Assembly (NCBI RefSeq): GCF_016481275.1
Contig: NZ_JAEMNW010000003.1
Coordinates: forward strand, 558,001 to 622,000
Direction: 5' to 3'
DNA from: Antrihabitans auranticaus
GTDB lineage: Bacteria; Actinomycetota; Actinomycetes; Mycobacteriales; Mycobacteriaceae
DNA: 64,000 nt
Made by a program: the position numbers and the translations under genes
Shown here: in pieces, positions 27,191 to 60,620 of the stretch
How the letters are laid out: every line of letters begins with the position of its first letter
Position numbering within the stretch: the first letter of the stretch is position 1
The notes under the pieces: model-generated
Told to the model about the DNA's origin: nothing
Seen by the model: the letters and a program-made list of their open reading frames with translations, nothing else
Database searches by the model: none

Positions 27191-27208
27191 TCACTACATA
27201 CGTAGTGA
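27191..27208. promoter_or_regulatory. TetR operator candidate 2
   Basis: TCACTACATACGTAGTGA has perfect 7-base arms and the same CACTAC-AT-NN-GTAGTG core as the first copy. Its centre is 36 bases from that of copy 1. Confidence 0.8.
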
Positions 27209-27213
27209 AAACT

Positions 27214-27231
27214 GCACTACATCTGTAGTAC
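27214..27231. promoter_or_regulatory. TetR operator candidate 3
   Basis: GCACTACATCTGTAGTAC keeps CACTAC-ATCT-GTAGT, with one arm position changed. It lies nine bases before the monooxygenase ATG, and its centre is 23 bases from that of copy 2. Binding here would block transcription of the monooxygenase. Confidence 0.75.
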
Positions 27232-27240
27232 GGTCGGTCC

Positions 27241-28298: not shown

Positions 28299-28317
28299 CT
28301 AAGTAAGGTTTGCCTTT
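28299..28317 (+). promoter_or_regulatory. Iron box (IdeR/DtxR-type) before salicylate synthase
   Basis: CTAAGTAAGGTTTGCCTTT agrees with TTAGGTTAGGCTAACCTAA at 11 of 19 positions and keeps an AAGG-CCTT inverted core. It ends 16 bases before the start codon of mbtI. It is the weakest of the seven boxes in the siderophore locus; position and gene context support it. Confidence 0.6.
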
Positions 28318-28333
28318 CCAAACTGGAGGACCG

Positions 28334-29650
28334 ATGCCGACGATGGAACAACAACTGCGTATCGACGCGCGAGTCGACCCGCTTGCTGCTGTCACCCGTC
28401 TCGCCGCATCTGGCCGGTTCGCCGAGTACGTGATCTACGAGCGGCCCGACGAGTGGATCTTTGCGGCCGATCCTGTCGGCTCGATCGAGCTGGACACCGC
28501 CGAGTTGCGTTCGGTCTGGAACGGCGAACCGCGCACGATCACCTGGACCGGCCGCCCCGCAACCGTTCTCGACGACGCACTGGCCGGGTTACCGCTGGGC
28601 AATCGCCACGCGTACGGGTGGGTCGGCTTCGAGTTCTGCGCCTACAGCTACGACGCCGCAGCGGCGCTCAGCCAGCCGACCAAGCTGGCGCATCTGATCA
28701 TCCCGCGCATCGAGGTCCGCGTGACCGAGACCGGTGCCACCATCTCCGGCGGCACTCCAGCCGAGCACGACGAGCTGCGCAAGCTGCTCATGGAACCGGG
28801 CACCGTGTCGCACGCCGCGGCCGCTCCGGTCGACATCCGGACCGACCCCTCCGGCTACTGCGACCGGGTTGCCGCTGCCGTCGCGGAAATCCGGGACACC
28901 CAGTACGAGAAGGTCATCCTGTCGCGCAGGGTCGACGTCGGGTTCGACGTCGACATGCCCGCCACCTACCGTCTGGCGCGTCGGCACAACACACCAGCAC
29001 GGTCGTTCCTCTTCAAGCTCGGCACTCTCGAAGCTGCGGGATTCAGCCCCGAACTGGTCGCTTCCGTGGACGAAGAGGGCGAGGTGACGACGGAACCGCT
29101 GGCCGGCACGAGGGCGTTCGGGCGCGGTGACGCCGAGGACCTCGCCGCACGCATCGACCTCGAGTCGGACCCGAAAGAAATCGTCGAGCACGCCGTGTCG
29201 GTGCGGACCTCGCTCGCCGAGATCGCGTCCGTCGCCGAGGCCGGCACAGCCGTCGTCTCGGACTTCATGACGGTCCGCGAGCGAGGGAGCGTGCAGCATC
29301 TCGCGTCGACGGTCCGTGGTCGGCTGTCGTGGCGGCGCACGCACTGGGAGGCCTTCGACGTCCTCTTCCCGTCGGTCACCGCATCGGGAATTCCCAAGCG
29401 CGAGAGCGTCGATGCGATCCTGCGTCTCGACGATGTGCCGCGCGGCCTCTACTCGGGCGCGGTCGTCGTCGTTTCGCCGGGACGGCATCTCGAGGCAGCC
29501 CTGGTCCTGCGTGCGATCTATCAGGAAGACGGCAACGCGTGGTTGCGCGCGGGTGCCGGCGTGATCGCCCAGTCCTCGCCGGAGCGTGAGTTCGAGGAAA
29601 CGTGCGAGAAGCTCTCGAGCGTCTCCCCCTACGTCGTGCCGGCCAGCTGA
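28334..29650 (+). CDS. mbtI: Salicylate synthase (MbtI/NbtS type)
   Basis: The 438-residue protein is a chorismate-utilising MST enzyme. Conserved blocks are TTEPLAGTRAFGRG, SDPKEIVEHAVSVRTSL, GSVQHLASTVRGRL, FPSVTASGIPKRES, GLYSGAVVVVSP and the final WLRAGAGVIAQSSPEREFEE, which carry the Mg and chorismate-binding acids. The full-length, single-domain form fits a salicylate synthase that converts chorismate through isochorismate to salicylate, the starter of mycobactin/nocobactin siderophores. ATG 28334 follows GGAGGA at ideal spacing. The gene next door, on the opposite strand, encodes the salicyl-AMP ligase; the two 3' ends overlap by 22 bases. Confidence 0.93.
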   Translation: MPTMEQQLRIDARVDPLAAVTRLAASGRFAEYVIYERPDEWIFAADPVGSIELDTAELRSVWNGEPRTITWTGRPATVLDDALAGLPLGNRHAYGWVGFEFCAYSYDAAAALSQPTKLAHLIIPRIEVRVTETGATISGGTPAEHDELRKLLMEPGTVSHAAAAPVDIRTDPSGYCDRVAAAVAEIRDTQYEKVILSRRVDVGFDVDMPATYRLARRHNTPARSFLFKLGTLEAAGFSPELVASVDEEGEVTTEPLAGTRAFGRGDAEDLAARIDLESDPKEIVEHAVSVRTSLAEIASVAEAGTAVVSDFMTVRERGSVQHLASTVRGRLSWRRTHWEAFDVLFPSVTASGIPKRESVDAILRLDDVPRGLYSGAVVVVSPGRHLEAALVLRAIYQEDGNAWLRAGAGVIAQSSPEREFEETCEKLSSVSPYVVPAS

Positions 29651-31242
29651 GCTGCCAGCGCGCGCTTGTCGATCTTCCCGACCGGCGTGACAGGCAGATC
29701 GTGTGCCTGCACCACCGAGTCGGGAAGCTTGAAGGCCGCAAGGCCCCGACCGGTCAGGAAGGTCTTGATCTCCGCCAGGGTCGGCATTTCGCTGTCGACA
29801 ACCAATGCGGCGCAGACCTTCTCACCCAGCATGGCGTCGGCGATGCCGACGGCGGCAGCAGCCCGGACAGCCGGGTGCGCGATCAGGTGCTCTTCCAACT
29901 CGTCACATGAGACGTTCTCGCCGCCCCGGTTGATGACGTCTTTGATCCGGCCCGTGACGGCCAAGTGCCCACTCTGGAGCTGACGCACGAGGTCGCCCGT
30001 GCGGTAGAAGCCGTCCGGGGTGAACGCACGCGCATTATGTTCGGGCGCACGGTAGTACCCGCGGATCGTGTACGGACCACGCGTGAGCAATTCGCCCTCC
30101 GCACCGGGCGCGACGTCGTTGCCCGCAAGGTCGACCACGCGGACCTCGTCGGCCGGCGAGAGCGGCCTGCCTTGGGTTTTCGCGACGAGTTCGAGATCGT
30201 CGTCGAGTCTCGTGTAGTTGAGCAGTCCCTCGGCCATGCCGAACACCTGCTGCAACTGGGCACCGAGAGCCGGCGTGATTTCGCGTGCCGGCTGCTCAGG
30301 GAGTCGTGCTCCACCGACCTGCAGCAGACGCAGCGTCGCCAGGTCGGCGTCTTCCCATTCGGTTGCGGCGGTCCACAATTGGGCCAGCGGGGGCACCAGG
30401 CCGGTGACGGTGACACCGTGCCGCTCGATCGTCGCGAACGCATTCTCCGGGCTGGGATCGGCCGTGAACGCGAGCGCTCCACCGGTCACGATCGTTCCCA
30501 GAATTCCCGGGCAGGCGAGCGGGAAGTTGTGCGCCGCAGGCAAAGCCACCAGGTAGGTGTCATCGGGCGTCAGCGCGCAGACCTCGGCGCTTGCGCGAGC
30601 GTTGTACGCGTAATCGTCGTGCGTGCGTGGAATCAGCTTCGGCAGGCCCGTCGTCCCACCCGAGATCAGCAGTACCGCGAGGTCGGAAGGATCCGGCTCC
30701 GGTAGCGGCCGCGGATCCCGGGGCACATCCAGCAACGATGTGAATTCGGCTGGATCCCCGAGGACCAGCACGTGTTCGAGCGTTGCAACGCGCGTCTGCA
30801 CGGTGCGGGCGAGTTCGCGGTAGTCGAACCCGGCGGCAGTCTCGGGGATCACATAGGCGACCGCACCGGAGAGCTCTGCCAGGTGACCGATCTCGGCAGC
30901 CCGGTGCGCGGGCAGACAGAGCACAGGGATCGCGCCCGCGCGTAGCAAACCGAACAGCACCACGACGAACTCCGGAGTGTTCGGCAGTTGCAGAACTACG
31001 CGGTCACCGGGCGAAATTCCCAGCTCGACGAGACCCGCCGCCATGCCGTCCGCTGCCACGTCGAGTTGCTCGTAGGTCAGCGGAACCGCGTCTTTCACGG
31101 CGATCTTCGATGGCCACTTCTGTGCGGCTGTGCGCAGTAGCGAGCCCAGCGTCACACCCTCCCAGAACCCTTCGGACTTGTACCCCGCGGCCAGCGCCGG
31201 ATCGAAGGGAACGAAGCCGTCGAGATGCGGGGTCGTGGTCAT
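29629..31242 (-). CDS. mbtA: Salicyl-AMP ligase (MbtA type)
   Basis: About 537 residues from ATG 31242, with AAAGGA before it. It is a stand-alone adenylation enzyme of the 2,3-DHB/salicylate-AMP ligase group. The nucleotide loop is LLISGGTTGLPKLIPRTHDD, the mid motif is QQVFGMAEGLLNYTRLDD, the late motif is FYRTGDLVR and the hinge/catalytic end is INRGGENVSCDELEEHL with the final lysine in TPVGKIDKR. It activates salicylate with ATP and loads it on the aryl carrier protein at the N-terminus of the divergent NRPS. One strong iron box sits between the two starts and can serve both. Confidence 0.92.
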   Translation of the reverse strand: MTTTPHLDGFVPFDPALAAGYKSEGFWEGVTLGSLLRTAAQKWPSKIAVKDAVPLTYEQLDVAADGMAAGLVELGISPGDRVVLQLPNTPEFVVVLFGLLRAGAIPVLCLPAHRAAEIGHLAELSGAVAYVIPETAAGFDYRELARTVQTRVATLEHVLVLGDPAEFTSLLDVPRDPRPLPEPDPSDLAVLLISGGTTGLPKLIPRTHDDYAYNARASAEVCALTPDDTYLVALPAAHNFPLACPGILGTIVTGGALAFTADPSPENAFATIERHGVTVTGLVPPLAQLWTAATEWEDADLATLRLLQVGGARLPEQPAREITPALGAQLQQVFGMAEGLLNYTRLDDDLELVAKTQGRPLSPADEVRVVDLAGNDVAPGAEGELLTRGPYTIRGYYRAPEHNARAFTPDGFYRTGDLVRQLQSGHLAVTGRIKDVINRGGENVSCDELEEHLIAHPAVRAAAAVGIADAMLGEKVCAALVVDSEMPTLAEIKTFLTGRGLAAFKLPDSVVQAHDLPVTPVGKIDKRALAAQLAGTT

Positions 31243-31262
31243 GAGAGTCCTTTCGGGCACAG

Positions 31263-31281
31263 CTAGGTTAGGCAACCCTAC
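31263..31281. promoter_or_regulatory. Iron box between mbtA and mbtB
   Basis: CTAGGTTAGGCAACCCTAC agrees with the iron-box consensus at 15 of 19 positions. It lies 20 bases before the mbtA start on one side and 24 before the mbtB start on the other, so one operator probably controls both promoters. Confidence 0.88.
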
Positions 31282-31305
31282 TTTAAGTCGGATAGGCTGT
31301 CCGGC

Positions 31306-34300
31306 GTGAACTCAGGGCTCAGTACGGACGACATTCGCGACACCATCGCGCGCGCACTCGACATTCCCGCGCAGGCAATTGCCGATGACGACGACCTGAT
31401 CGCGCTCGGCCTCGATTCCATCCGCATGATGAAACTCGCAGGTGGCTGGCGCAAGCAGGGCTTCGCCGTGAACTTCGCCGAGCTCGCTGCCGACCCGTCC
31501 GTCGAGGCCTGGTTCCAGAGGCTGACCGGCGCGGAACCCGCGCCCGTCGCCACACCCGAGCCGGTGTTCGTTGCGGACAGCAGCGAGCCCTTCCCGCTCG
31601 CCCAGATGCAGCACGCGTTCTGGATCGGACGCTCGGAGAGTCACGAACTCGGCGGTGTGGCTGCGCACCTCTACGTCGAATTCGACGGTGCAGACGTCGA
31701 TCCCAAGGCGCTGGAAAAGGCTGTCGCCGAGCTGGTGCACATCCACCCGCAGTTGCGCGCGCAGTTCCTTCCCGACGGCACCCAGCAGGTCCTACAGACG
31801 CCATTGCATCCGTCCTTCGCCGTGGTCGATCTGCGCGACAGCACCGACGTGCAAGCGCGTCTCGAGGAGCTGCGCGAGGAGAAGTCGCATCAGCGCCTAC
31901 GGGTAGAAGACGGTGAGGTCATCGACGTGACCCTGTCGCTGCTCCCCGCGGGACGCACCCGGCTGCACCTGGACCTCGACATGCTCGCCGCCGACGCCAT
32001 GAGCTACCGGCTTCTGATGACCGACCTCGCCGAGCTGTATCGCGGCGGAACGGTCGCGGCGAGCGAGTACACCTATCGCCAGTACCTCGCCTCTCGCACG
32101 AGCGTCACCCGAGACGCGGATCGCGAATGGTGGCAGAACCGGCTCGCGGACCTGCCCGCAGCGCCGACCCTCCCCCTGGTTCCCGAGTCGGAACGCACCG
32201 ATCCGAATCGCACTGTCCGCTATCACCACTGGCTCGAGCCCGAGGCCAAGGCACGACTGCTGTCGGGTGCCCATACCCGCGGCATCACCCCCGCCATGGC
32301 TTTGGCGTCGGTCTTCGCCGAGACGATCGGTCGCTGGTCCGCCGACCAGCGGTTCCTGCTGAATCTGCCGCTGTTCCAGCGCGAAGCTCTCCACCCCGAC
32401 GTCGATCGCATCGTTGGGGATTTCACGTCGTCGGTCATGCTCGACATCGACGTCAGCGAACCCGCAAACGTCGCCGATCGCGCCCGCGCCCTGCAGAAAA
32501 CGCTGCACACCAACGGCTCCCACAGCGGATATTCCGGCCTCGATGTGCTGCGTGACCTCGGCCGGCACCGCGGCGAGCAGGTCCTCGCACCGATCGTCTA
32601 CACGAGCGCGCTCAATCTCGGTGAGCTGTTTGCAGATTCGGTGTCGAAGGCATTCGGCGAGCCGGTGTGGATCGTGTCGCAAGGCCCGCAGGTTCTGCTG
32701 GATGCACAGGTCACCGAGGTTCGCGGCGGCTTGCTGCTCAACTGGGACGTCCGCGAATCAGCTTTCCCCGCAGGCGTTGTCGACGCGATGTTCGCCCAGT
32801 ACAAGGCCGCGATCGACCGGCTCGCACAAGGCGAAGCAGCGTGGACAGCAGAGGCGACACCGCGCCTTCCCATCGACCAACTCACCGTCCGGTCGAGCGT
32901 CAACGCAACGTCCGGACCGGTCACCGGCCGCGCGCTGCACGAAGGCTTCTTCGCACACGCCGAGGCAACACCGGACGCCGTCGCCCTGCTGTGGGGCTCC
33001 GACGGCCGGCTCACCTATGGCGAGTTGGCCGCGCGCGCACTGAACATCGCGGGCGCGCTGAGCGCCGCGGGTGTGACCGCCGGCGACGCTGTCGCAGTTC
33101 AGCTTCCGAAGGGCCCCGAGCAGATCGTCGCGATCCTCGGCGTGCTCGCGGCGGGCGGCGCGTACGTACCGATCGGCTACGACCAGCCGGTCGCGCGGCG
33201 AGCACAGATTCTCGAAACCGCGCAGGCGGCCGCGGCCCTGTGCGTAGACGCTGCCGAATACGAGCACACCGGAGTTCCCGCGGTGCCGTTCGCCGACGCC
33301 GCCCGGTACGCGGAACCCCTTGCTGCACCGGTGGTTCCCGACGTCGAATCGGTCGCGTACGTGATCTTCACGTCGGGCTCGACCGGCACACCGAAGGGCG
33401 TCGACGTCCCGCACCGCGCCGCGATGAACACGGTCGACGCCGTCAACGAACACTTCGACATGACCGGAGCGGATCGTGTGCTCGTCATCTCGGCACTCGA
33501 GTTCGACGCATCGGTCTACGACATCTTCGGACTGCTCTCCGTGGGCGGATCGCTCGTCGCGATGGATGCCGCGACACGCGAAAACCCCTTCCAGTGGGTC
33601 GAACTCATCAATCGGTACGAGGTCACGATCCTCAACTGCGTGCCGAGCATGCTCGACATGCTGCTGACCGCCGGCGGCGTCGGCGGAACGCTGCGCGCAG
33701 TCTTGCTCGGGGGCGACTGGGTCGGTGCGGACCTCCCGGGCCGCCTGGCCGAACAGGTTCCGACGTGCCGGTTCGCCGGTCTCGGCGGCGCCACCGAGAC
33801 CGCGATTCACTTCTCGATCTGCGAGGTCGTCGAAGCGCCCGCTCACTGGACCGCCGTGCCCTTCGGAAAGCCGTTCACAAACGTGCAGTGCCGCGTGGTT
33901 GCACCGTCGGGCCTGGACTGCCCCGACTGGGTTGCGGGTGAACTGTGGGTCGGCGGCGCAGGCGTCGCACTCGGGTATCGCAACGACCCGGACCGCACCG
34001 CCGAACGCTTCGTCCACTTCGAGGGGCAGAACTGGTACCGCACAGGCGACTTGGCGCGGTACTGGCCGGACGGCACTTTGGAGTTCCTCGGCCGTGCGGA
34101 CCATCAGGTCAAGATTCGCGGCTATCGCGTCGAACTCGGCGAGATCGAAGGTGCGCTGCGCTCGGTCGACGGTGTTCACCTCGCCGTCGCGGTTGTCGTC
34201 GGGAAGGTCGCGCCGAAGCTGGCAGCGGCAGTGACACTCGACGACGCGGTGAGTGCCGACGACATCCTCGCCGCGGTCGGCGAACTGCTGCCCCGCTACA

Positions 34301-34746
34301 TGGTCCCCAGCCGGTTGGAAATCCTCGCCGACTTCCCGCTGACGTCGAACGGAAAGCTCGACCGCGCTGCGGTGCAACGGCTGTTCGACGCCGACGACGA
34401 GGCCGGACAGTTCGTCGCACCTTCGACAAACCTCGAGAAGGCACTGGCAGCGATCGTGGGCGAGGTCATCGGTGCGACGAAGGTCGGCGCGACCGACGAC
34501 TTCTTCTCCCTCGGTGGCGATTCCGTCCTTGCGACGACCCTGATCGCACGGGTTCGCGAGTGGCTCGATGCACCACAGGCCGTCGTTGCCGATATCTTCG
34601 CCGGTCGAAACGTCGCCGGGCTCGCAGGTCGACTCGAATCGAAGGACGCCCAGCACGGACGGTTGGAGCAGGTCGCACAGATCTACTTGGAAGTCGCCGC
34701 GATGGACGAGCACGACCTCGCGGACGCCAGCGTGGTCCAGCGATAA
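31306..34746 (+). CDS. mbtB: NRPS ArCP-Cy-A-PCP (MbtB-like, phenyloxazoline-forming)
   Basis: The 1146-residue synthetase has four domains. An aryl carrier protein occupies 1-75 (ALGLDSIRMMK, phosphopantetheine Ser38). A heterocyclisation domain spans about 95-520, with the Cy motif D-x4-D-x2-S seen as DMLAADAMS (about 226-234). An adenylation domain covers about 545-1020 (YVIFTSGSTGTPKG, FDASVYDIFGLL, WYRTGDLARY, TSNGKLD). A carrier protein follows (DFFSLGGDSVL, Ser1073). It should accept salicylate from MbtA, couple it to Ser or Thr and close an oxazoline ring. M. tuberculosis MbtB ends in a thioesterase; here the protein stops after the carrier, and a separate thioesterase is encoded at 54369-55124. 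The start is GTG, 24 bases after an iron box. Confidence 0.92.
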   Translation: MNSGLSTDDIRDTIARALDIPAQAIADDDDLIALGLDSIRMMKLAGGWRKQGFAVNFAELAADPSVEAWFQRLTGAEPAPVATPEPVFVADSSEPFPLAQMQHAFWIGRSESHELGGVAAHLYVEFDGADVDPKALEKAVAELVHIHPQLRAQFLPDGTQQVLQTPLHPSFAVVDLRDSTDVQARLEELREEKSHQRLRVEDGEVIDVTLSLLPAGRTRLHLDLDMLAADAMSYRLLMTDLAELYRGGTVAASEYTYRQYLASRTSVTRDADREWWQNRLADLPAAPTLPLVPESERTDPNRTVRYHHWLEPEAKARLLSGAHTRGITPAMALASVFAETIGRWSADQRFLLNLPLFQREALHPDVDRIVGDFTSSVMLDIDVSEPANVADRARALQKTLHTNGSHSGYSGLDVLRDLGRHRGEQVLAPIVYTSALNLGELFADSVSKAFGEPVWIVSQGPQVLLDAQVTEVRGGLLLNWDVRESAFPAGVVDAMFAQYKAAIDRLAQGEAAWTAEATPRLPIDQLTVRSSVNATSGPVTGRALHEGFFAHAEATPDAVALLWGSDGRLTYGELAARALNIAGALSAAGVTAGDAVAVQLPKGPEQIVAILGVLAAGGAYVPIGYDQPVARRAQILETAQAAAALCVDAAEYEHTGVPAVPFADAARYAEPLAAPVVPDVESVAYVIFTSGSTGTPKGVDVPHRAAMNTVDAVNEHFDMTGADRVLVISALEFDASVYDIFGLLSVGGSLVAMDAATRENPFQWVELINRYEVTILNCVPSMLDMLLTAGGVGGTLRAVLLGGDWVGADLPGRLAEQVPTCRFAGLGGATETAIHFSICEVVEAPAHWTAVPFGKPFTNVQCRVVAPSGLDCPDWVAGELWVGGAGVALGYRNDPDRTAERFVHFEGQNWYRTGDLARYWPDGTLEFLGRADHQVKIRGYRVELGEIEGALRSVDGVHLAVAVVVGKVAPKLAAAVTLDDAVSADDILAAVGELLPRYMVPSRLEILADFPLTSNGKLDRAAVQRLFDADDEAGQFVAPSTNLEKALAAIVGEVIGATKVGATDDFFSLGGDSVLATTLIARVREWLDAPQAVVADIFAGRNVAGLAGRLESKDAQHGRLEQVAQIYLEVAAMDEHDLADASVVQR

Positions 34747-34761
34747 CTTAGGCTATCCTTC
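34743..34761 (+). promoter_or_regulatory. Iron box before siderophore-binding lipoprotein
   Basis: ATAACTTAGGCTATCCTTC agrees with the consensus at 13 of 19 positions, including the intact core TTAGGCTA-CCT. It overlaps the stop codon of mbtB and precedes the lipoprotein start by 47 bases, giving the transport/oxidase pair its own iron-responsive promoter. Confidence 0.82.
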
Positions 34762-34808
34762 CTAGCCGAAGCACCTATGTGTGCCCTCGCCAGCAAAAGG
34801 AGCTGAAC

Positions 34809-35777
34809 GTGAAACCTGTTACGGGCCGTTGGAAACGTACCGCGGTGGTTCTGGTGGCCGCCGGATTGGCGTTCGGCGTCGCAGCATGCGGTTCCAGTTC
34901 CGACGACGACGCCTCGACGGACACCATCGTCGTGACGGACTCCAAGGGCGAGCAGACGATCACGAAGAACCCGCAGCGGATCGTGTCCATGGACAACCAG
35001 TGGCTCGACAGCCTCCTGGCGCTCGACACGAAGCCGGTCGCCTACATCGACAATCTCTCCGTCGTCGCCGGCTCGGCTCCGCCGTGGGAAGAAGGCAAGC
35101 TCGACGGTATCGACAAGCTGAACCTGGGTGGCGACCTCGTCGAGAAAATCGGCGCGCTCGAGCCCGATCTGATCCTGGTGCCGAACTTCCTGATCGACGA
35201 GCCGACCTACCAGAAGCTCGAGGCACTGGCCCCCACGCTTACGGCGATCACCACGTCCGGTGTCGACCCGTGGGACGTGCGGGTCGAGACACTCGGCACC
35301 ATCCTCGGCAAGGAGGACAAGGCCGACGAGGTCATCGCCGGTGTGAACGCCAAGCTCGACGGGCTCGCAGCGAAGTACCCTGGGCTGCAGGGCAAGACGT
35401 TCGTAACGGCTTATCTCGTCGGGACCAACATCACGGTGCTGGCGGACCCCAACGACGGTTCGGCGAAGATCTTCGCGAAGCTCGGCATGTCGATTCCGCA
35501 GAACCTCATCGACATCGCAGGCCCGACCGGTCGGCCGGCAATATCGACCGAACGCATCGGTGAACTGAACTCGGACATGCTGATTGCCGCGTCGCAGTCT
35601 CCGAACGCGGACCAGTTCAAGGCTCTGCCGGGCTACGACTCGCTGCGCTCGGTGCAGAAGGACGCGGTCTACATCGCCGATTTGACGACGATCACCGCGC
35701 TCAATCAGCCGACAGTGCTTGCGCTGCCCTACGCGCTCGACAAAATCGAGCCCACGCTGGCGAACGCTGCGAAGTAG
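34809..35777 (+). CDS. Iron-siderophore ABC transporter substrate-binding lipoprotein
   Basis: About 322 residues from GTG 34809, with AAGGAGCT before it. A lipoprotein signal peptide ends in the lipobox VAAC (Cys about residue 20), followed by GSSSDDDAS. The mature part is a class III (FecB/FepB-like) binding protein: IVVTDSKGEQTITKNPQRIV, LLALDTKPVAYI, IGALEPDLILVPN and LGMSIPQNLIDI. It should capture the ferric siderophore outside the membrane and deliver it to FecCD-type permeases; the matching permeases and ATPase are at 56387-59282. Its stop overlaps the start of the next gene (TAGTG), so it is coupled to the SagB-type oxidase. Confidence 0.9.
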   Translation: MKPVTGRWKRTAVVLVAAGLAFGVAACGSSSDDDASTDTIVVTDSKGEQTITKNPQRIVSMDNQWLDSLLALDTKPVAYIDNLSVVAGSAPPWEEGKLDGIDKLNLGGDLVEKIGALEPDLILVPNFLIDEPTYQKLEALAPTLTAITTSGVDPWDVRVETLGTILGKEDKADEVIAGVNAKLDGLAAKYPGLQGKTFVTAYLVGTNITVLADPNDGSAKIFAKLGMSIPQNLIDIAGPTGRPAISTERIGELNSDMLIAASQSPNADQFKALPGYDSLRSVQKDAVYIADLTTITALNQPTVLALPYALDKIEPTLANAAK

Positions 35778-37126
35778 TGAGTCAACCGACCACAGTCCTG
35801 TACGCACTCCGCCCTGGAGCAACGTGCGTGACGGCCGGCGGCGCCGCGATCCTGCTGGCGCCGCCGCACAAGGAACGGTTGGGCAAACTGCCGCCCGCGC
35901 AGTTGCAGGCGTTGAAGAATCTCAACGCCGGCGAACAGATCGAACCCGGCCACGACCCCGGCGTTCGCGCTGTCCTCGAATCCCTTGCCGAGGGTGGGTG
36001 GTTGACGATTACGGTGCGCTCCGGCGACACCGATCTGTACACGATCCGGCCGTTCAAGGCGCCGCCGGCTCGGCCGTCGGCGGTAGAGCAGAACCGGACC
36101 CTGTCGAAGTTCGCGATCATGCGACAGCACAAGGGCCAGTTCGTGCTCGAGCATCCAATGTCATGGTGCGACATAGACATTTACGACTCTCGGATCGTCG
36201 GGCTGGTCTCGGGACTCGGAACCGAAGAGGGCGCCGTCGCCGACCGGTTGGCTGCCGACTTGAAATGGACCGGCCACACAGTTGCCGACCGCGCAGCCGA
36301 GGACCAGGAATTCAGTACCCGCTCGTGGGGTGCACACGAACTCTGGTTCCACCGGCTGAGCAACCTGAGCGAGCGGGTACTCACCTGGGAGGAATTCGGA
36401 CCGACACGGTGGGCGGACGGCGAGTTTCCACCGCTCCCGGCGCGCAAGGCCAGCTACCCCGGCGACCCGATCACGCTGTACGCACCGGATATCGAGACAC
36501 TGCGCGAGTCCGATCCGAGCATTACCGCCGTGCTCGAAGACCGGGTCTCCTGCCGGGACTTCGACGACTCGGCTCCCATCACGCTCGAGCAGGTCGGCGA
36601 ACTGCTCTTCCGTACCGCACGGACCAAGTTGCTGCGGACCGCGAAGGGTGTCGAATACCTCTCGCGGCCCTACCCGGCCGGTGGCGCGGTCTACGAACTG
36701 GAGATCTATCCGGTCGTGCGCAATGTGGCAGGGCTCGCGGCCGGCATGTATCACTACGACTCGTTCGACCACGTTCTGCGACCGGTTGCAGACGACAGCG
36801 TCGTCGAGCGAATGCTGAAGACGTCGTCGCTGACCCTGTCCGAAGGCCAACTGCCGCAGGTGCTTTTCGTCATCGCCGCCCGGTCGGGCCGCCTGATGTG
36901 GACCTACGAACAGGTGCCCTACGCGATCATCCTCAAGCACGTGGGCGTGGTCCTGCAGACCATCTACCTGGCGTCGACCGCGATGGGACTGGGCGCCGTG
37001 GCGCAAGGCTACGGTGACACCGCCGCGTTCAACGAGGCCGCGAAGGTCGACGAACTCGAAGAGTGCAACGTCGGCAGCATCGTCGTGGGCAGCCCTACTG
37101 CGGAAAGACCGTCTGCGTCCAGGTGA
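35777..37126 (+). CDS. SagB-type flavin dehydrogenase (azoline oxidase candidate)
   Basis: The 449-residue protein has an N-terminal region of about 240 residues without a clear family match. Its C-terminal nitroreductase-like SagB/ThcOx domain (about 250-440) shows VSCRDFDDSAPITLEQ, EYLSRPYPAGGAVYELEIYP, AAGMYHYDSFDHVLRP, LPQVLFVIAA and LASTAMGLGAVAQGYG. Family members use FMN to oxidise thiazoline or oxazoline to thiazole or oxazole in peptide and NRPS pathways. Beside a Cy-domain NRPS, the simplest role is oxidation of the salicyl-oxazoline to the aromatic oxazole of nocobactin-like siderophores. In the region aligned with the Lys-Tyr pair of McbC-type oxidases I read Thr376-Tyr377, so the Lys may be replaced. 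The gene starts at GTG overlapping the lipoprotein stop. Confidence 0.82.
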   Translation: MSQPTTVLYALRPGATCVTAGGAAILLAPPHKERLGKLPPAQLQALKNLNAGEQIEPGHDPGVRAVLESLAEGGWLTITVRSGDTDLYTIRPFKAPPARPSAVEQNRTLSKFAIMRQHKGQFVLEHPMSWCDIDIYDSRIVGLVSGLGTEEGAVADRLAADLKWTGHTVADRAAEDQEFSTRSWGAHELWFHRLSNLSERVLTWEEFGPTRWADGEFPPLPARKASYPGDPITLYAPDIETLRESDPSITAVLEDRVSCRDFDDSAPITLEQVGELLFRTARTKLLRTAKGVEYLSRPYPAGGAVYELEIYPVVRNVAGLAAGMYHYDSFDHVLRPVADDSVVERMLKTSSLTLSEGQLPQVLFVIAARSGRLMWTYEQVPYAIILKHVGVVLQTIYLASTAMGLGAVAQGYGDTAAFNEAAKVDELEECNVGSIVVGSPTAERPSASR

Positions 37127-40229: not shown

Positions 40230-43200
40230 CTATTGGACCAGACCTTCGAGGGCTCGCGACCAGATCTCCGCGAGCCGCTTTGCCCTGTCCGCCGAGAACA
40301 GCGCGTCGCTCCACCGCCACGTGGTCACCAGTTGCGGACCGTCTGCGGTCGGCTGGATCGCCGCCGCGACGTCGAGCGTGTAGCGCAACGGGAGGTCCGG
40401 CTCGGGGTCGAGCGGCAGCAGCTTGTTCAGCGCCAGATCGGTGATCGGCGCCCACGGCGCCTCGTTCGCCCCCGCCAGATCGAAGCGGCCCAGATAGTTG
40501 AATTCGATCTGCGGCGGTTGTGCGGCAACCAGTTCCGGGACCCGAAGCCCGTAGCGCAGCAGTCCGTAGTCGAGACCGTTGTTCGGTATCTGCGCAATCT
40601 GCGCCGTCACGGACTCGAGGTCTCCCCCGAGCCTGACCGGATACACGCTCGTGAACCAGCCGACCGTCTGCGCCGTGTCCGCACCAAGGAGTTCGTCCTC
40701 GCGACCATGGCCTTCCATCGCGATGAGCGTTCCGGCACCGGGGTCGTGCCCGCCCTCGACCCGCCACTGCGCGATCGTTTGCGACAGCGCGGTGAGCAGG
40801 TACTCCCGGACGCCGACCTCCTTGGTCACCCTGTCCAGCAGTAGACGCGTCGTCGCGATCGAAGTCGGCGCCGTAGTGACCTGCAGTGCCGCCCAGGTGT
40901 CGGTTGCCGGGTCGGGCAATCGGTCGCCGATGACTGGATCCGCTTCCTTTACCTGCGCTATCCAATAGTCCTGCTGCGCGCCAACTTCCGCCGATGCGGC
41001 GCGCTTTCCCAGCAGCTGCGCCCACGTCCGGTAACTGGTGAACTCCGGCAGCACCTTCGGACTTCCGGTCTGTGCCGCCGCATCGGCGAGGTCGGCGAAC
41101 AGGACGTGCCACGAGACCGCGTCGGTCGCGAGGTGGTGGATCGTCAGCAGCAGGACGTCGTCCGCGTCGGGACGCTCGAACCACACCGCTTGGACCATCC
41201 GGCCCGCCGCCGGGTCGATGCGATCGATCGCCGCCCGCGCGCCTTCGACCAACGCGTTCTCGAAGTCAGGTGCGGGAACCCTTGTCAGAATGTCTGCTGC
41301 CCGAACAGCTCCGGGTGCACGTGAGACCAACCTGTCGCCAAGCTGCGACCGCAGCATGTCGTGCGCGTCGAGTACCGCCTGCAGCACAGATTCGAGTCGC
41401 TCACTGTCGATATCCGACGGCAGCGTAGCGAGTGCTGTCTGCGTGAACCGGCGGAAGTTCCCGAACTCGTACATCCAGTCGATGATCGGCACCGCGCCGA
41501 TCTCGCCGTATTCGGCTACGTCGGCCGTTCTCGAAACTGACGCGTCGATCGCCGCTGCCAGATCCCGAATCGTCGGTGTTGCGAGCACCATTCGCGGCGT
41601 GATCGGCAACCCGTGTCGCCGCATCTTGTTGACCAGCGAGATGGCGACGATCGAATCCATGCCCAGGTCGAAGAAGTCTTCGTCCACACTCGGCGCCGCA
41701 TCGAGCAGTTCGGCGAATGCGCCGCAGAGTGCACGTTCGGTGTCGGTGTCCGGCTCGACCTTCGCCTCTGCGATCGAGCCGGCGATGCGCGTCAATTCGT
41801 GCGCGTCGAGCTTTCCGTTCGAGTTGACCGGCAGAGAATCGAGCGTGATCAGGCGCGACGGAATCATGTACGACGGCAAGCGGTCCGCGAGTGCAGACCG
41901 CATACGTGTCGTGTCGCCATCGCCGCCGACCAAGAAACCGACGAGGCTCGCGCCGCTCTGCCGTCGCACCACGATGACAGCCGCGTTATCGACCTGCGGC
42001 AGCCGAAGCAGCGCGGACTCGACCTCGGAGATCTCGATGCGATAGCCACGAACCTTGACCTGAGTATCGGTGCGACCCAGGAAGGACAGTCCGCCGCTCG
42101 GCAGTCGGCGGACCAGGTCGCCGGTGCGGTACATCCGCTGACCGGCATGGAACGGGTCCGCGACGAAGCGGTCGGCGGTGGTTGCCGGTCGGCCGACATA
42201 GCCGCGCGTCAGCTGCACGCCGGACAGATACAGCTCACCCGCAACGCCGTTCGGCACCAACCGAAGTCCGGAGTCCAGGACGTAGGCCGACATTCCGGCG
42301 GTCGGTCCCCCGACCGTCGGCACCGGCGAATCCTTGACGACGGCGACGACTGCCTCGACCGTCGTCTCGGTCGGTCCGTAGCAGTTGTAGACGTCCGTTT
42401 CGGGCAGCGATTGCAGGTGCGACCACAGCTGCGGCCCGATCGCCTCACCGCCGAGGGCGAGCACCGCGAGCTGAGTCTCCCCGAGGCCGACCGCGGCAAG
42501 TTGGTTGAACATGGATGGCGACGTGTCGATCATGTCGACGTCGTGCGCGCCGATTCCCGCGACCAACTGCTGCGCATCCCGCATGGCTTCGGCGTCGAAC
42601 AGGTGCAGCGCGTGGCCGTCCAGCAGACCGATCAACGGTTGCCACGACGCGTCGAAGCTGAGCGACCACGCGTGCGCGATCGTGAGCTTGCGGCCGAGTC
42701 GCGCGACCGCGGGCGCATACACGTGGTCGCGGTGATCGGCGAAGTAGCCGACCACTGCTTCGTGAGTTCCCATGACGCCCTTGGGTTCTCCCGTAGATCC
42801 CGATGTGAAGATCAGGTACGCGCACTGCGCCGGGTGCACGGCGGGCCGTACGAACTCGTCGACGCCGTAGGGCTCGTCGAGGTTCAGCACGGGCAGGTCG
42901 CCCGCGAGTCCGAGGGAGTCGGTATCCGAGATGGCCAGCACCGGATTCGACTGCCGCAGAATCGAGTCGATTCGAGTCGACGGCAACGAGATGTCGACCG
43001 GTACGTACGCGCCGCCTGCCTCGAGCACGGCCAGAATTGCGATGATCGACCGCGCCGAACGTGGCAGCAACAGAGCCACAACCGATTCCGCGCCGACGCC
43101 ACGGCTGACCAGTTCGCCTGCCACACGGTGCGCGGCCTCGCGCAGTTCCTCGTAGGTGAACCGCTCGTCGGTGGTCGTGAGAGCGAGTGCGTCCGGAGTC

Positions 43201-44591
43201 GCCGTCGCCTGTCGTTCGAACAGGTCTGTGATACTCCCCGTTTCCACGATGGAAGGTGCGTGGACGAGTGCAGCGCGTTCGGTCGCGGACAGGAGGTCGA
43301 GATCGTCGACTGTCGAGTCGGCAGAGTCGGGAAGTTGCCGTAGGACGCTGAGCAGCCGGGCGCCGATGTCGGCAGCCGAGTAGTGCGGGATCGCCTCGGG
43401 GATCGCTTCCATGATCACGACGAGCGAGCCGTCGAGCAGGTAGGACACCACTGTCAGCGGGTAGTGCGCCAGGCTCTCCATTGTCACGGGGAGGAACCGG
43501 GCGCCGTCGGCGGCGGTCACCGGTTCGGTCGCGGACCCGATCGGCGCGTTCTCGAAGACGAACAACGTGTCGAAGAGCGAACCGTGCCCCGCCGCACGCT
43601 GGACCGTCGACAAGCTCAAATACCCCTTGTCGCGCATTGCTGCCGACTCGCGTTGCAGCCGGGCGCACTGCTGCCCGACGGTCTGCGTGCGGTCCAATTC
43701 GACGAACGACGGGACCGTGTTGATGAACAGCCCGATCATCGTCTCGACGCCGGGCAACGCCTCGGGCCGTCCGGAAATCGTTGTGCCGAAGACGACATCA
43801 CGACGGTCCGTCAGGCGTCCGAGGACGATCGCCCACGCGTACTGCACGGCAGTGTTCAACGTGAAACCGTTCGACCGCGCCCACTGCGACAGCTTCGCGG
43901 TATCGGATGCGTCGAGGCTCAGCCGAGTCCGCTGTGGCACGGTCGCGCCGACGTCGGCGGACCCGTCCGCCAACATCAGCGGACCGCTCAGCCCGCGCAA
44001 ATAGTCGGCCCACTTGCCGGCGGCAGCGGTGGTGTCCTGAGCGTTGAGCCAGCCGATGTAATCGCGGTACGGCCGCGGTTCCGGCAGCGAGCCGGTGGCT
44101 CCGCCCGCGTTGTAGACAGCGATGAGCTCACCGAAGAACACCGCGACCGCCCACCCGTCCATCAGGATGTGATGCGCGGTCAGGATCATGCGACGGCGTT
44201 CGTTCGGCAGATTCACGAGGACGACCCGCAGCAGCGGGCCGCTCGCGAGGTCGAACTTCAGCTGCCGTTCGGACTCGGCGATCGAGTCGAACTCCTCGGG
44301 CAACGCCGACCGTTCGAACCACGGGAGCGCCACCCGCGACGGCACGATCTGTACGGGTTTGGGGAGGTCACGATCCCAGAACGACACTCGAAGGTTCGGG
44401 TGCCGCTGCAGAATTACCTCGACGCTGCGGCGCAGCAGCGCCACATCGAGCGGTCCGCCGATATCGACGACGAACTGCATCGTGTACAGGTCGATGCCCT
44501 CGTCGGCCAGCTGCGCCAGGGAGAACAAACCCTCCTGCAGGGGGCTGAGTGCGAGGACGTCTTCGATCTGTGGCGGGGACTCGGCCGTCAT
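40230..44591 (-). CDS. mbtF: NRPS C-A-PCP-E (MbtF-like, second lysine module)
   Basis: About 1453 residues. Domains in order are condensation (about 10-430, HHILMDGWAVAVF near 142), adenylation (about 450-930; YLIFTSGSTGEPKG near 592, NCYGPTETTVEAV, YRTGDLVRR, NSNGKLD) and carrier (FDLGMDSIVAISL, Ser about 978). A C-terminal domain with the epimerisation signature HHLATDAVSWHVL (about 1150) completes it. The size and order match M. tuberculosis MbtF, which adds the terminal N6-hydroxylysine that becomes the cyclic hydroxamate. The true ATG at 44591 overlaps the upstream NRPS stop by ATGA. It is the last gene of the minus-strand assembly operon and ends at a hairpin terminator. Confidence 0.92.
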   Translation of the reverse strand: MTAESPPQIEDVLALSPLQEGLFSLAQLADEGIDLYTMQFVVDIGGPLDVALLRRSVEVILQRHPNLRVSFWDRDLPKPVQIVPSRVALPWFERSALPEEFDSIAESERQLKFDLASGPLLRVVLVNLPNERRRMILTAHHILMDGWAVAVFFGELIAVYNAGGATGSLPEPRPYRDYIGWLNAQDTTAAAGKWADYLRGLSGPLMLADGSADVGATVPQRTRLSLDASDTAKLSQWARSNGFTLNTAVQYAWAIVLGRLTDRRDVVFGTTISGRPEALPGVETMIGLFINTVPSFVELDRTQTVGQQCARLQRESAAMRDKGYLSLSTVQRAAGHGSLFDTLFVFENAPIGSATEPVTAADGARFLPVTMESLAHYPLTVVSYLLDGSLVVIMEAIPEAIPHYSAADIGARLLSVLRQLPDSADSTVDDLDLLSATERAALVHAPSIVETGSITDLFERQATATPDALALTTTDERFTYEELREAAHRVAGELVSRGVGAESVVALLLPRSARSIIAILAVLEAGGAYVPVDISLPSTRIDSILRQSNPVLAISDTDSLGLAGDLPVLNLDEPYGVDEFVRPAVHPAQCAYLIFTSGSTGEPKGVMGTHEAVVGYFADHRDHVYAPAVARLGRKLTIAHAWSLSFDASWQPLIGLLDGHALHLFDAEAMRDAQQLVAGIGAHDVDMIDTSPSMFNQLAAVGLGETQLAVLALGGEAIGPQLWSHLQSLPETDVYNCYGPTETTVEAVVAVVKDSPVPTVGGPTAGMSAYVLDSGLRLVPNGVAGELYLSGVQLTRGYVGRPATTADRFVADPFHAGQRMYRTGDLVRRLPSGGLSFLGRTDTQVKVRGYRIEISEVESALLRLPQVDNAAVIVVRRQSGASLVGFLVGGDGDTTRMRSALADRLPSYMIPSRLITLDSLPVNSNGKLDAHELTRIAGSIAEAKVEPDTDTERALCGAFAELLDAAPSVDEDFFDLGMDSIVAISLVNKMRRHGLPITPRMVLATPTIRDLAAAIDASVSRTADVAEYGEIGAVPIIDWMYEFGNFRRFTQTALATLPSDIDSERLESVLQAVLDAHDMLRSQLGDRLVSRAPGAVRAADILTRVPAPDFENALVEGARAAIDRIDPAAGRMVQAVWFERPDADDVLLLTIHHLATDAVSWHVLFADLADAAAQTGSPKVLPEFTSYRTWAQLLGKRAASAEVGAQQDYWIAQVKEADPVIGDRLPDPATDTWAALQVTTAPTSIATTRLLLDRVTKEVGVREYLLTALSQTIAQWRVEGGHDPGAGTLIAMEGHGREDELLGADTAQTVGWFTSVYPVRLGGDLESVTAQIAQIPNNGLDYGLLRYGLRVPELVAAQPPQIEFNYLGRFDLAGANEAPWAPITDLALNKLLPLDPEPDLPLRYTLDVAAAIQPTADGPQLVTTWRWSDALFSADRAKRLAEIWSRALEGLVQ

Positions 44592-47500
44592 GAGCGGGCG
44601 TTCCACGACGCCGACAACGCCGCCAAGGCATCCGCACCCAGACCGGACGCGGTCATCGGCGCGTGCGTGTGCTGCTCAGCCGGTTCTTCCGCCACGGTCT
44701 CCGGCGCTGCCCTCGCCTCATCCACCGCGGCAGCCAGCTCTGAGATCGTGAAGAACTCGAAAACCATCTGGGGCGTCAAGGGCAGTCCGAGGTTGTTCGC
44801 CCGACCGGACCACTGGATCGAAATGACGCTGTCGCCGCCGAGCGCGAAGAACCCGTCCTCGGGTGTCACGTCATCGATTTCGAGCAGTTCCTCGAGAATC
44901 TCGATGAGCACCCGCTCGGTGTCCGACGCCGGACCTGTGACGGCATCGGTTCGCCGTGGAACCTCGACTTCGGTTGCCGCCGAATCGAACACGAGCGCAC
45001 CTGTCGAACTCCAGCGTGCGCGCTCTGCCGTCTTGACGCCGTCGACGAACACATCGCCGACCACGCCGTGCGGCAACACCCGCAGCTTCTCGTCGAGCAC
45101 CTGAACGCGCGATCCCTCGACGGGGCGACCGTCGCGCAGAATCGCGTCGCCGATGCGGTACTCGTAGGTGACTGTCGATTCCGGTGCCAGGGCAACGAGC
45201 AGCTCGTTCAACGACGCCGGACCGGCCGGCGCGTTCACAATCCACAGCCGCACCGACGGCATCATCGAGACGCCGGACAGAGCGAGGCTCGCGAGGACTT
45301 GCGCGTCTGCGCGCACAGTCTCTGCGTGCTGCTCGACGATCGAGCGCGCAAGCACGTCGGGGTCGTCAGCGGTGCACGCGTCGAGTGGAAGTGCCTGCTG
45401 GGTCCCCTTGCCCCACTCGAGGACCCGATCTCGCTCGGCCGCGGGGACAAGATCCAGCTCGTCGAGTGCCACGTCGGGCGTCTGCGCGAATGCGTCGAAA
45501 ACCTTCGCGAGGGTCTCGGCCATGAGCTCGGCCGTCGCCGGGTCGTAGAGGTCTTTGCTCACGACGATTCGGGTCGTGATCGCACCGTCCGCCTCGACCG
45601 CGAAGTTGACGTTGATGTCGAGGAACGAGATGTCGAAGTCGACAGGCAACATCGTCAGCGTCGTGTCACCGGTGAGGTCCAGCCTCTGCTCTCGATCGCG
45701 GAAATGCATCATTGCCTGGAACAACGGGTTACGCGACCGGGTCCGCTTCGGGTTGAGTGCCTCGACGAGCCGCTCGATCGGAAGCTCCTGATGGCCGTAT
45801 GCACCGAGCGCCGAATCGCGACCGCGAAGCAAGACGTCCCTGAGTGTGGGATTGCCGGACAGGTCGTTGCGCAGGATGACCATGTTGGCGAAAAGTCCGA
45901 CCAGATCCGTCGTCGCTTCGTCGACACGACCTGCGATCGGCGTGCCCAACGCGAGATCGTTGCCACCGCCGAGCGCGTGCAGCATCGTCACCACTGCGGC
46001 CTGGCATGTCATGAACTCGCTTGCGCCCGTTTCCTCGGCCAGTGCCTTGACCCGTGTGCGCACCGACGCGGGAACCGTGAACACTGCGAGTTCGCCGCTC
46101 TTACCGAGCACGGGCGGCCGCGGCCGATCGTGGGCGACAGTGATCTCGTCGGGCAGGCCGGCAAGCGCGCCGCGCCAGTATTCGAGTTCGCTCTCGCCGA
46201 AGCTGCTCTGCAGAATCTCACGCTGCCACAGCGCATAGTCCGCGTACTGGATCGGCAGTTCGTTCCACGTCGGCGCCTGACCGGTCGACCGCGCACCATA
46301 TGCAGCGGCAAGGTCGGCGAGGAAAACGCTGAACGAGCCGTGATCGGCAACCATGTGGTGCGCCAGCACCGACAGCACGTGCGTCCGCTCGTCGAGTGCG
46401 AAGATTCGCGCCCGGATCAGCAGCTCCGACTCGATGTCGAAGCAGTAGGTCGCGACATCGGCAAGCACGCTGTCGAGCTCACTCGACGCGATCTCGGTCA
46501 CTGGAATTTCGAACGATTCGACCGGCCGCACAACCTGGTACGGCAACCCGTCGCGCTCCACGAAATTGGTCCGCAGCGCCTCGTGGCGATTGACCACGTC
46601 GTTCACGGCGGAACTGAGCGACGCGAGATCCAGCGGACCGTCCAACCGGACCGCGAACGGGATGTTGCTCATCGCGCTCGGGCCTTCGAGCCGATGCTGG
46701 AACCACATCGCGAGCTGGGAGTACGACACCGGGACGTCGTCCGGCCGTTCGCGTTCGGTCAGTTCGGGCCGCGAGCTTTCGACGGTCGGTTCGAGGTCCT
46801 CGAATTCGTCGTCCAGATCGATGTCGAACTCGTCGCGGAAGGCTGCGACAAGATGCGCCGCGAGGCCGGCGACCGTCGGCGTATCGAAAGGCACGCGCAC
46901 GTCGATCTCGATGCCGAACTCGGACCGGATCTGGGTCACCAACCGAGCGGCGAGCAGAGAATGGCCACCGAGCTCGAAGAAAGAGTCGTCGGCACCGATT
47001 CGATCGCGACCGAAGATCCGCCCGAACAGTCCGGCTACACGCTTCTCCGTCGGCGTCGAAGGCTCCCGGTATTCGCGCGCAACCATGAGGATCGGTTCGG
47101 GCAACGCGCGACGATCGAGCTTGCCGTGCGCGGTGGTCGGCACCTCTTCGATGACGCCGAACGCTGCGGGCACCATGTGGTCGGGCAGGATCGCGGCCGC
47201 GTGGGCGCGCAGCTGCTCGATGACGATTTCCTCATCACGCTCGGGCACGACGTAGGCGGCGAGCATCGCGCCGAGAGCTTCGTTCTCGGTTGCGACAACC
47301 ACGCAGTGCGCAACGGTCGGATGGCTGCTGATCACGGCCTCGACCTCGCCGAGTTCGATGCGGAACCCGCGGATCTTCACCTGCTCGTCGGATCGCCCGA
47401 CGAACTCGATGTCGCCATCACCGTTGCGGCGCGCAAGGTCACCTGTGCGGTACAGCCGGCCACCGGGTTGGAACGGGTCGGCAACGAAGCGCTCGGCCGT

Positions 47501-53000: not shown

Positions 53001-53063
53001 GTCCGCTGAATCGGAGGACAGCAGAACCGGAATGCTTCCATCGGGAAGCTGGTAACTAGGCAT
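50007..53063 (-). CDS. mbtD: Polyketide synthase AT-KR-ACP (MbtD-like)
   Basis: About 1018 residues from ATG 53063. An acyltransferase domain (about 95-400) opens with GYVFPGQGSQRAGMG and has the active-site GHSQGEIAAAYVSG (about 191). The ketoreductase domain (about 590-890) has VVIIGGTGKLGLEFAEHYAR and the WGLWSVQG region. An ACP is at the end (VALGLDSLQALDFRKR, Ser about 971). No ketosynthase is present; it is supplied by the preceding gene. Together they extend an acyl unit with malonate and reduce it to the beta-hydroxy acid of mycobactin-type siderophores. A 69-codon in-frame extension to 53270 is shadow sequence over the ketosynthase gene. It overlaps that gene by eight bases (ATGCCTAG). 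Confidence 0.92.
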   Translation of the reverse strand: MPSYQLPDGSIPVLLSSDSADLLKKEAVALLAYVEDHADVTPDEIASMLFRTRVARRHRALAMVTDRAGLLRALRAVADGAEHPAVVATTAAAGARRVGYVFPGQGSQRAGMGRLFYDTSPAFRAEIDACDAAFHEVYGTSPRSYILDADASGDNDIRIVQPALFMQMVGLAAMWRAAGVAPAAVIGHSQGEIAAAYVSGAMTMKDAIRVVSTRARVVHEVAPRNCTMAVVAIDRDECEAMIARHSGWAELSVINSPHILCVSGERTALLEMIDKLTEEGKFAREIRVEYPAHTSVVSRFQDQFRGVITGQLDNGAFLEPSIPCIGATLGGAIFPDLPIDEYWFWNLRNAVRFDFAIASAVEEKIDLYVEIAENPTLMLAIQENLSVSAPGQPMRVVGTSRRSATDLREFTRNLGTIAVNDTSYSWDALRVDTAGPVPLPLRDFPNVQMQTMKLWAKYIPTVAAAVEVPDEAYPQRVVENWVRLDRRSLTPPRTIQFVDHTGECADLATALIDAADGHGATAALYDPDRADTRDFDTVVILLPSLPDLDAASAVAQFAEFFGLRRWWPPLEDEVRDIWLVTVGGEVVTPEDGAANLFHGAVTAGYRSIATEHPAVTFRHLDLARDLARPAKAASIVAALHTAGESDLALRGGKVYAKRLVLDQSAAIAKPQDLSNVVIIGGTGKLGLEFAEHYARLGADRVTLLSRSGESAALAPRLESLRALGKTEIVVSACDVSDESAVLQQATEFEDSPASLVLHAAVNYVDSPFEDVTPEAVEEASRSKVLGVGNVLRAFPLTPACKVVMCSSVAATLGGRGQLLYAVTNRMLDVMAQQLREQGVDCVSVQWGLWSVQGPLDDAGVAKVEGAGVIPMNPGDAIAVGLADPRDGIVISADWAEVASILSVFGYGPMLSPLVPEDVVAPAEPEPVAALVAEAPAPTGTLAERILHELNLVMGVDDADAIDGSVPLVALGLDSLQALDFRKRVKAQLNRDLPVAAILGGASLDEVVALMSNEGSVHV

Positions 53064-55124: not shown

Positions 55125-55180
55125 TGCGCTGCTCCGAGTTCTGCCGAAACCTCGGCAATAGTTCACGTACGGCACTGACT

Positions 55181-55199
55181 TTAGCGTAGGCTAGCCTAA
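55181..55199 (-). promoter_or_regulatory. Iron box before the thioesterase-NRPS operon
   Basis: TTAGCGTAGGCTAGCCTAA agrees with the consensus at 16 of 19 positions, the best match in the window. It lies 56 bases upstream of the thioesterase ATG and should control the whole five-gene operon. Confidence 0.9.
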
Positions 55200-55931: not shown

Positions 55932-55959
55932 CCACCGCTGAGTGGTTAGCGTCAACCCG

Positions 55960-60568: not shown

Positions 60569-60620
60569 CGGGTACTCCAACTCCTTCGCGGGCGAAACCG
60601 AGCGATGCTCAACTACAGGG

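Follow-up and report, generated by a model that had tools for sequence, protein, structure and literature searches.

The SagB-type gene found in Nocardia nocobactin clusters has been linked to the oxidation state of the siderophore, with oxazoles made where the gene is present and oxazolines where it is absent, as described in the sections of the report on which we draw (Mannle et al., 2020; PMC7413640). In the bacillamide pathway, BmdC (structures 7ly4-7ly7) is a proven trans-acting azoline oxidase of a nonribosomal peptide synthetase (NRPS), a stand-alone flavin mononucleotide (FMN) enzyme that serves a Cy-bearing synthetase, acting on the assembly line while leaving the free product untouched (PMC8795117); in the part of that work considered here, Tyr260 is the proposed base and BmdC binds the A domain through its own oxidase domain. 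Here we describe a SagB/ThcOx-type gene at 35777-37126 of a 64,000-nucleotide stretch of the Antrihabitans auranticaus genome (contig NZ_JAEMNW010000003.1, positions 558,001 to 622,000), referred to as the window. From gene content, homology, active-site conservation and co-occurrence we consider it highly probable that this gene encodes the oxazoline dehydrogenase of a nocobactin-type pathway, oxidizing a carrier-bound phenyloxazoline in trans. Judging from the same sections of PMC7413640, the Nocardia dehydrogenase has the same domain, cluster type and proposed step, but belongs to another genus, and the window holds both halves of the cluster in a single 32-kb stretch. The initial annotation, which proposed trans oxidation of a salicyl-oxazoline toward a nocobactin-like product, was thus right in substance, on an idea already published for Nocardia. 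It had also called a trans SagB arrangement less common, and this arrangement proves to be neither rare in the family nor new.

Both genes on which that proposal was built, an ArCP-Cy-A-PCP synthetase at 31306-34746 and the flavin dehydrogenase, are real and correctly placed. Pfam recovers the domains of the synthetase, and the dehydrogenase exceeds the cut-offs of TIGR03605 (136.5 bits for the SagB domain, against a curated cut-off of 78.4) and of PF22767, giving a ThcOx-like N-terminal part followed by a nitroreductase domain. The first 240 or so residues had been taken as lacking a clear family and as a possible docking part; in a predicted structure, however, residues 6-442 align with ThcOx (5lq4) at 32% identity over 410 residues, and the reading of this region as a docking part of no known family was rejected. 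ThcOx/CyaGox (PMC5108345; 5lq4, 8pz5) is the closest solved structure and shares with the window enzyme an N-terminal peptide-clamp region joined to a nitroreductase domain, but acts on ribosomal peptides and has Lys-Tyr where the window enzyme has Thr-Tyr. McbC of microcin B17 (6gos, 6grh), which belongs to a synthetase complex for ribosomally synthesized and post-translationally modified peptides (RiPPs), aligns only from model residue 221 on. BmdC resembles the window enzyme in its RiPP recognition element (RRE)-like N-terminal domain, but has a thiazoline substrate, one such domain, a retained Lys and a remote sequence (26-28 bits). Since BmdC contacts the A domain through its oxidase domain, as far as the portion of PMC8795117 used here goes, the clamp part of the window enzyme need not be a dock. 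The FMN-phosphate site R-x-S-x-R is present as R256, S258 and R260, aligned with BmdC Arg145, Ser147 and Arg149, and Tyr377 aligns with BmdC Tyr260. All four residues are among 67 positions invariant across 27 rows, down to 45% identity (this alignment, A2, omits L018, which has an undetermined residue, from the 28 rows of alignment A1, from which five rows had been dropped). Across the 54 loci L001-L054, L001 being the window, the catalytic Tyr is retained in every one.

The gene lies in a host genome of 6.51 Mb in 24 contigs, within a nocobactin-type set that Pfam and NCBIfam place at 28310-60580 in two halves: 28310-37126, with salicylate synthase, aryl-AMP ligase, ArCP-Cy-A-PCP synthetase, binding protein and SagB-like enzyme, and 40230-60580, with NbtE, D, C, B, A and H, an importer and NbtG. 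The window has the gene set of such a cluster: NbtF as T-Cy-A-T, NbtD as C-A-T-C-T, NbtE as C-A-T-E, NbtB as KS, NbtC as AT-KR-T, NbtG, NbtH (for which TerH may stand in), NbtS and NbtT. The E domain of NbtE is called solely from a second stretch matching PF00668, and general family models underlie the calls of NbtT and NbtG. The specificity letters of the NbtF-like A domain read DAYNLGLIH at the GrsA code positions. With 65 of 65 candidates scored, the host genome has a single ArCP-Cy module, the second match being a sequence of 25% identity within a 4573-aa frame.

In the proposed mechanism, NbtT would put salicylate onto the ArCP of NbtF, and the Cy domain would join salicylate to Ser or Thr and close the oxazoline on the PCP. 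A separate FMN enzyme, probably a dimer, would then carry out a two-electron oxidation of the phenyloxazoline on its carrier, Tyr377 serving as base and N5 of FMN as hydride acceptor, and the resulting phenyloxazole chain would pass to NbtD. The product would be an N-acetylated, oxazole-capped compound resembling nocobactin NA or the nocardimicins; the acetyl group is predicted from the NbtH-type gene and a rule stated in the sections of PMC7413640 considered here. The genus of the window, shared with Antrihabitans stalagmiti, would thereby join the predicted makers of oxazole-capped nocobactins. The enzyme also provides a case in which a peptide-clamp RiPP tailoring enzyme seems to have shifted to a carrier-protein substrate.

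The enzyme co-occurs with its presumed partner. Among 351 genomes of the host's GTDB family, with the best four candidates per genome scored, 37 have the enzyme and 139 an ArCP-Cy module (both at E<=1e-60): 36 have both, 1 the enzyme alone, 103 the module alone and 211 neither. The module thus occurs in 36/37 enzyme-bearing and 103/314 other genomes (Fisher p 3.7e-15, a value that ignores relatedness). In a tree of 61 Cy domains, with rows hand-picked from 31 of the 36 genomes that have both and 28 of the 103 that have the module alone, 29 of the 31 rows from enzyme-bearing genomes fall inside one 38-row set (support 91/91), and presence of the enzyme changes state 9 times, where shuffled labels average 20.7 changes and none of 500 shuffles gets down to 9. 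The two rows outside the set belong to Nocardia genomes G430 and G457. Both carry decayed enzyme copies next to a binding protein, with Trp-Thr-Tyr-Glu replaced by Asp-Ser-Tyr-Gly or Asp-Ser-His-Gly and further invariant sites altered, and their sole ArCP-Cy falls in another clade. The two copies are sisters in a 72-row enzyme tree and so count as one event. Natural losses of this kind, with NbtF gone and the enzyme decayed or orphaned, render the partnership of NbtF and the enzyme testable.

Several observations weigh against the proposed role. An intact enzyme without any ArCP-Cy (40 of 40 candidates scored) occurs in Gordonia genome G074 (locus L121), where the gene has an integrase and a Mutator transposase next to it in a region of housekeeping and transposase genes; we read it as a recent relic. 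In A. stalagmiti the enzyme is apart from nbtS-T-F: it is kept with an nbtH-like gene at the site equivalent to the window's (matches to 35810-37652 and 55274-55850), nbtS-T-F-G are on a different contig, and nbtA-E were not located in that species. Nine Cy rows from enzyme-less genomes share the 38-row set, whose support falls short of the starred level, and the strains of Mannle et al. are unmatched to the sequences analysed here. The active site is also incomplete by canonical standards because Thr replaces the Lys of the Lys-Tyr pair, and the loop in question, residues 372-380, is where the predicted model is least confident. This substitution is general in the group: none of 40 siderophore-linked rows of a 56-row tree has Lys at position 376 (36 Thr and one each of Gly, Ser, Ala and Met).

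These points bear on two rival explanations. The enzyme might oxidize the complete oxazoline siderophore after release instead of a carrier-bound intermediate, as its gene overlaps that of the binding protein and not nbtF, in a unit with its own iron box at 34743, and as it is unlinked from nbtF in A. stalagmiti. However, BmdC is inactive on free product and must contact its synthetase (PMC8795117), a precedent that favours oxidation on the carrier. We regard oxidation after release as unlikely. The unlinked arrangement in A. stalagmiti means that the enzyme is encoded, and must work, in trans. The loss of Lys raises the question of whether the enzyme is weak or inactive and the product remains an oxazoline. 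Lys before the catalytic Tyr is important in dehydrogenases of thiazole/oxazole-modified microcins (TOMMs); it is present in CyaGox, in BmdC and in 10 of the 11 YcaO-linked rows (the other has Thr), and the five unassigned rows have Thr (2), Ser (2) and Asn (1). Across loci L001-L054 position 376 holds Thr 48 times and Gly twice, with a single case each of Ser, Ala, Met and Lys, and on the 56-row tree one switch between Lys and non-Lys occurs, ahead of the siderophore clade. Lacking this Lys, the window enzyme shares descent with the SagB/ThcOx family but is no canonical member, its active site being a variant one. Inactivity nevertheless seems very unlikely given the invariant positions described above, from which the true decay in G430 and G457 differs, and given that the Nocardia producers known to have such a gene make oxazoles, according to the same sections of PMC7413640. 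The catalytic Tyr persists in 55 of 56 tree rows, with His solely in decayed L125. The substitution itself is only a partial marker of a siderophore role and was rejected as such, the YcaO-linked Micromonospora musae enzyme (L088/L053) having Thr and L087 Asn. Two further sequences, L100 and L101 (genomes G076 and G278), have Val-Leu in place of Lys-Tyr and are possibly inactive or catalyse a different reaction.

Two other substrates can be considered. The closest outgroup relatives adjoin YcaO- and LanB-type genes, as would suit an enzyme of ribosomal peptides; yet the host genome has no YcaO match (the control was positive in 5 of 14 genomes), and 49 of 53 relatives in GTDB genomes have at least one nbtS, T, F or A-E homologue in the stretch around the gene. 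We rejected the RiPP role on the first of these grounds and give it next to no credence. The genome is also rich in NRPS genes, with 62 condensation-domain matches (contigs C1 and C20), many of them inside one 10,020-aa open frame, but the single ArCP-Cy module leaves another NRPS product a very remote prospect, rejected for want of a second such module. Trans oxidation of the nocobactin-type intermediate is the best supported reading because the nbt gene set, the one ArCP-Cy, the lack of a YcaO match, the 36/37 co-occurrence and the product correlation in Nocardia all agree with it.

The four relatives without nbt homologues nearby are L002 (unlinked), L021 (a binding protein only, in a stretch that ends after the gene), and L052 and L053 (YcaO- and LanB-type neighbours by Pfam). 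A YcaO-like frame lies no more than 20 kb away in each of 12 further outgroup stretches, L104 to L115 (by phmmer only, with best scores of 71 to 184 bits, lowest for L111, L113 and L114); L103 holds the same cluster as L053, and L102 is a 5-kb contig on which the enzyme alone was recognized. The RiPP-like cluster of M. musae (L053, L103) combines LanB_N, two LanB_C and two YcaO genes with a SagB enzyme that has Thr. We built one tree from 72 of 75 distinct SagB sequences (leaving out L100, L101 and L088, into which the identical L053 is merged) and another of 56 rows (restoring L088 and omitting L100, L101, the long branches L092, L094 and L099, and 14 near-copies). In both, the siderophore-linked rows share a single clade (100/100) with four unassigned ones, nested among YcaO-linked enzymes, with L021 labelled siderophore-linked although its stretch shows just a binding protein. 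The window enzyme groups with those of Nocardia nbt clusters in this clade, which has 44 rows in the 56-row tree (40 siderophore-linked), and the order of the nearest outgroups is weak (72/4 at one branch). The nested position suggests, on phylogenetic grounds, a single recruitment of the siderophore enzyme out of RiPP biosynthesis. In a phylum-wide sample, matches occur in 4 of 296 genomes (E<=1e-30), all in two families (f1 and f15) of one order. The likely descent from RiPP machinery and the spread into mycobacteria are what the present comparison adds to prior work; the sections of PMC7413640 considered here do not mention where the enzyme came from, its loss of Lys, its presence in mycobacteria, decay without NbtF, or mycobacterial clusters that lack NbtF.

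In 27 enzyme-bearing mycobacterial genomes we scored every ArCP-Cy candidate. In 19 an NbtF-type module is the only close one (60-64% identity), and G281, G887 and G889 among them have three remote modules (31-35%) in large frames as well. In the other eight the sole ArCP-Cy is 52-55% identical, on a different contig from the enzyme, groups with MbtB of enzyme-less mycobacteria (100/100) and has mbt-type neighbours in 8/8 (aryl-AMP ligase, thioesterase, KS, AT-KR). For three of these genomes the enzyme cluster was read over 40-58 kb; alongside the enzyme it has NbtA to NbtE, but nothing matching NbtF, NbtS, NbtT or NbtG, and two of the three give a weak NbtH match (56 bits). G881 (the L020 genome), also among the eight, has two copies of the SagB-type enzyme, on contigs C35 and C43. 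Mycolicibacterium novocastrense is an example of an environmental species whose second cluster lacks nbtF. We do not claim several independent losses of nbtF: the clusters fall in three tree places, yet one clade is not rejected (p-AU 0.109). Enzyme-linked mycobacterial Cy domains nest among Nocardia ones, a pattern that suggests horizontal entry of the cluster into mycobacteria. The enzyme is also found, at 53% identity, on five Mycobacterium plasmids, four from M. avium including pMAH135 (NZ_AP012556) and one from M. intracellulare (the others being NZ_CP059000, NZ_CP076859, NZ_CP076857 and NZ_CP023152). In the portions considered here, one report calls the pMAH135 genes mycobactin homologues (PMC4324632) and another names NbtC on the plasmid (PMC11877719), neither mentioning the SagB gene. 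The former also places an MbtB-like protein on both the chromosome of M. avium TH135 and pMAH135; a rule of one phenyloxazoline module per genome, which fits 27/27 genomes (modules of at least 50% identity), is therefore not claimed.

A RiPP azoline dehydrogenase that lost its Lys may have been recruited to a salicyl-capped NRPS and have entered mycobacteria with a Nocardia-type cluster. Where that cluster lacks NbtF (at least 8 genomes), the enzyme might tap the MbtB product, one starter module then supplying two siderophores, a mycobactin with an oxazoline and a nocobactin-type compound with an oxazole, and the oxidase being the branch switch; we hold this combined scenario only tentatively. 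The role assigned to the enzyme in itself leads us to expect an oxazole siderophore in a number of non-tuberculous mycobacteria. M. abscessus makes a nocobactin-like mycobactin, and a figure legend in the same source indicates oxazoline and oxazole in a set of mycobactins and nocardial compounds, although the oxazole-bearing compound is not identifiable from that legend (PMC9505556, in part). Among the papers listed by our searches of the open-licence literature, a scope outside which subscription papers fall, none reports an oxazole siderophore from a mycobacterium in its title or abstract opening.

Table 1. Genes, catalytic pair and iron boxes of the nocobactin-type cluster, in window coordinates.
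Feature	Position	Strand	Basis
Iron box at nbtS-like gene	28304		14/19
nbtS-like salicylate synthase	28310..29650	+	TIGR03494, 518 bits (cut-off 325); likely start ATG 28334
nbtT-like aryl-AMP ligase (loads ArCP)	29629..31275	-	AMP-binding; best NCBIfam 2,3-dihydroxybenzoate (DHB)-AMP ligase, 630 bits, below cut-off 723.55
Iron box between nbtT and nbtF	31263..31281		15/19
nbtF-like phenyloxazoline synthetase, ArCP-Cy-A-PCP	31306..34746	+	Pfam domains; DxxxxD; among enzyme-linked Cy domains in tree
Iron box of unit with binding-protein and SagB-type genes	34743		
Iron-siderophore binding lipoprotein	34779..35777	+	Peripla_BP_2, 82.7 bits; likely start 34809
SagB/ThcOx-type FMN azoline dehydrogenase	35777..37126	+	TIGR03605 and PF22767 over cut-off; ThcOx structure match; overlaps stop of binding-protein gene
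Thr376-Tyr377, site of Lys-Tyr catalytic pair	36902..36907	+	Alignment with CyaGox, BmdC and relatives
nbtE-like NRPS	40230..44606	-	C-A-T and second C/E-type domain (Pfam)
nbtD-like NRPS, C-A-T-C-T	44588..50029	-	Pfam
nbtC-like polyketide synthase, AT-KR-T	50007..53270	-	Pfam
nbtB-like ketosynthase	53056..54372	-	Pfam
nbtA-like thioesterase	54369..55175	-	Pfam
Iron box ahead of nbtA-E operon	55181..55199		16/19
Iron box at nbtH-like gene	55242		14/19
nbtH-like N-acyltransferase	55265..55915	+	PF13523, 124.6 bits
Siderophore ABC importer (ATPase and two FecCD permeases)	56387..59282	-	Pfam
nbtG-like lysine N-hydroxylase	59279..60580	-	PF13434, 44.7 bits
Iron box at nbtG-like gene	60621		15/19

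Scored against a 19-letter IdeR consensus, six iron-box-like sites precede cluster genes, with 13 to 16 of 19 letters (Table 1). A seventh (55913, 15/19), inside the cluster, stands ahead of a 150-aa open reading frame on the forward strand (55942-56394) with a likeness to BlaI/MecI-type repressors judged by eye alone. The whole window has 13 sites of at least 13/19, or 10 places after overlaps are merged, those outside the seven being 11919, 37808 and 59377; chance would give 0.75 sites at 13/19 and 0.05 at 14/19. The flanks of the window cluster, 27192-28269 (FAD monooxygenase) and 60812-63664 (DUF4407 and the next gene), are adjacent in A. stalagmiti (L002:2476-6686), so about 32 kb was either inserted in the window genome or moved out of A. 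stalagmiti. An alpha/beta hydrolase gene on the reverse strand (37095-37832) overlaps the end of the SagB-type gene and adjoins that gene in A. stalagmiti as well.

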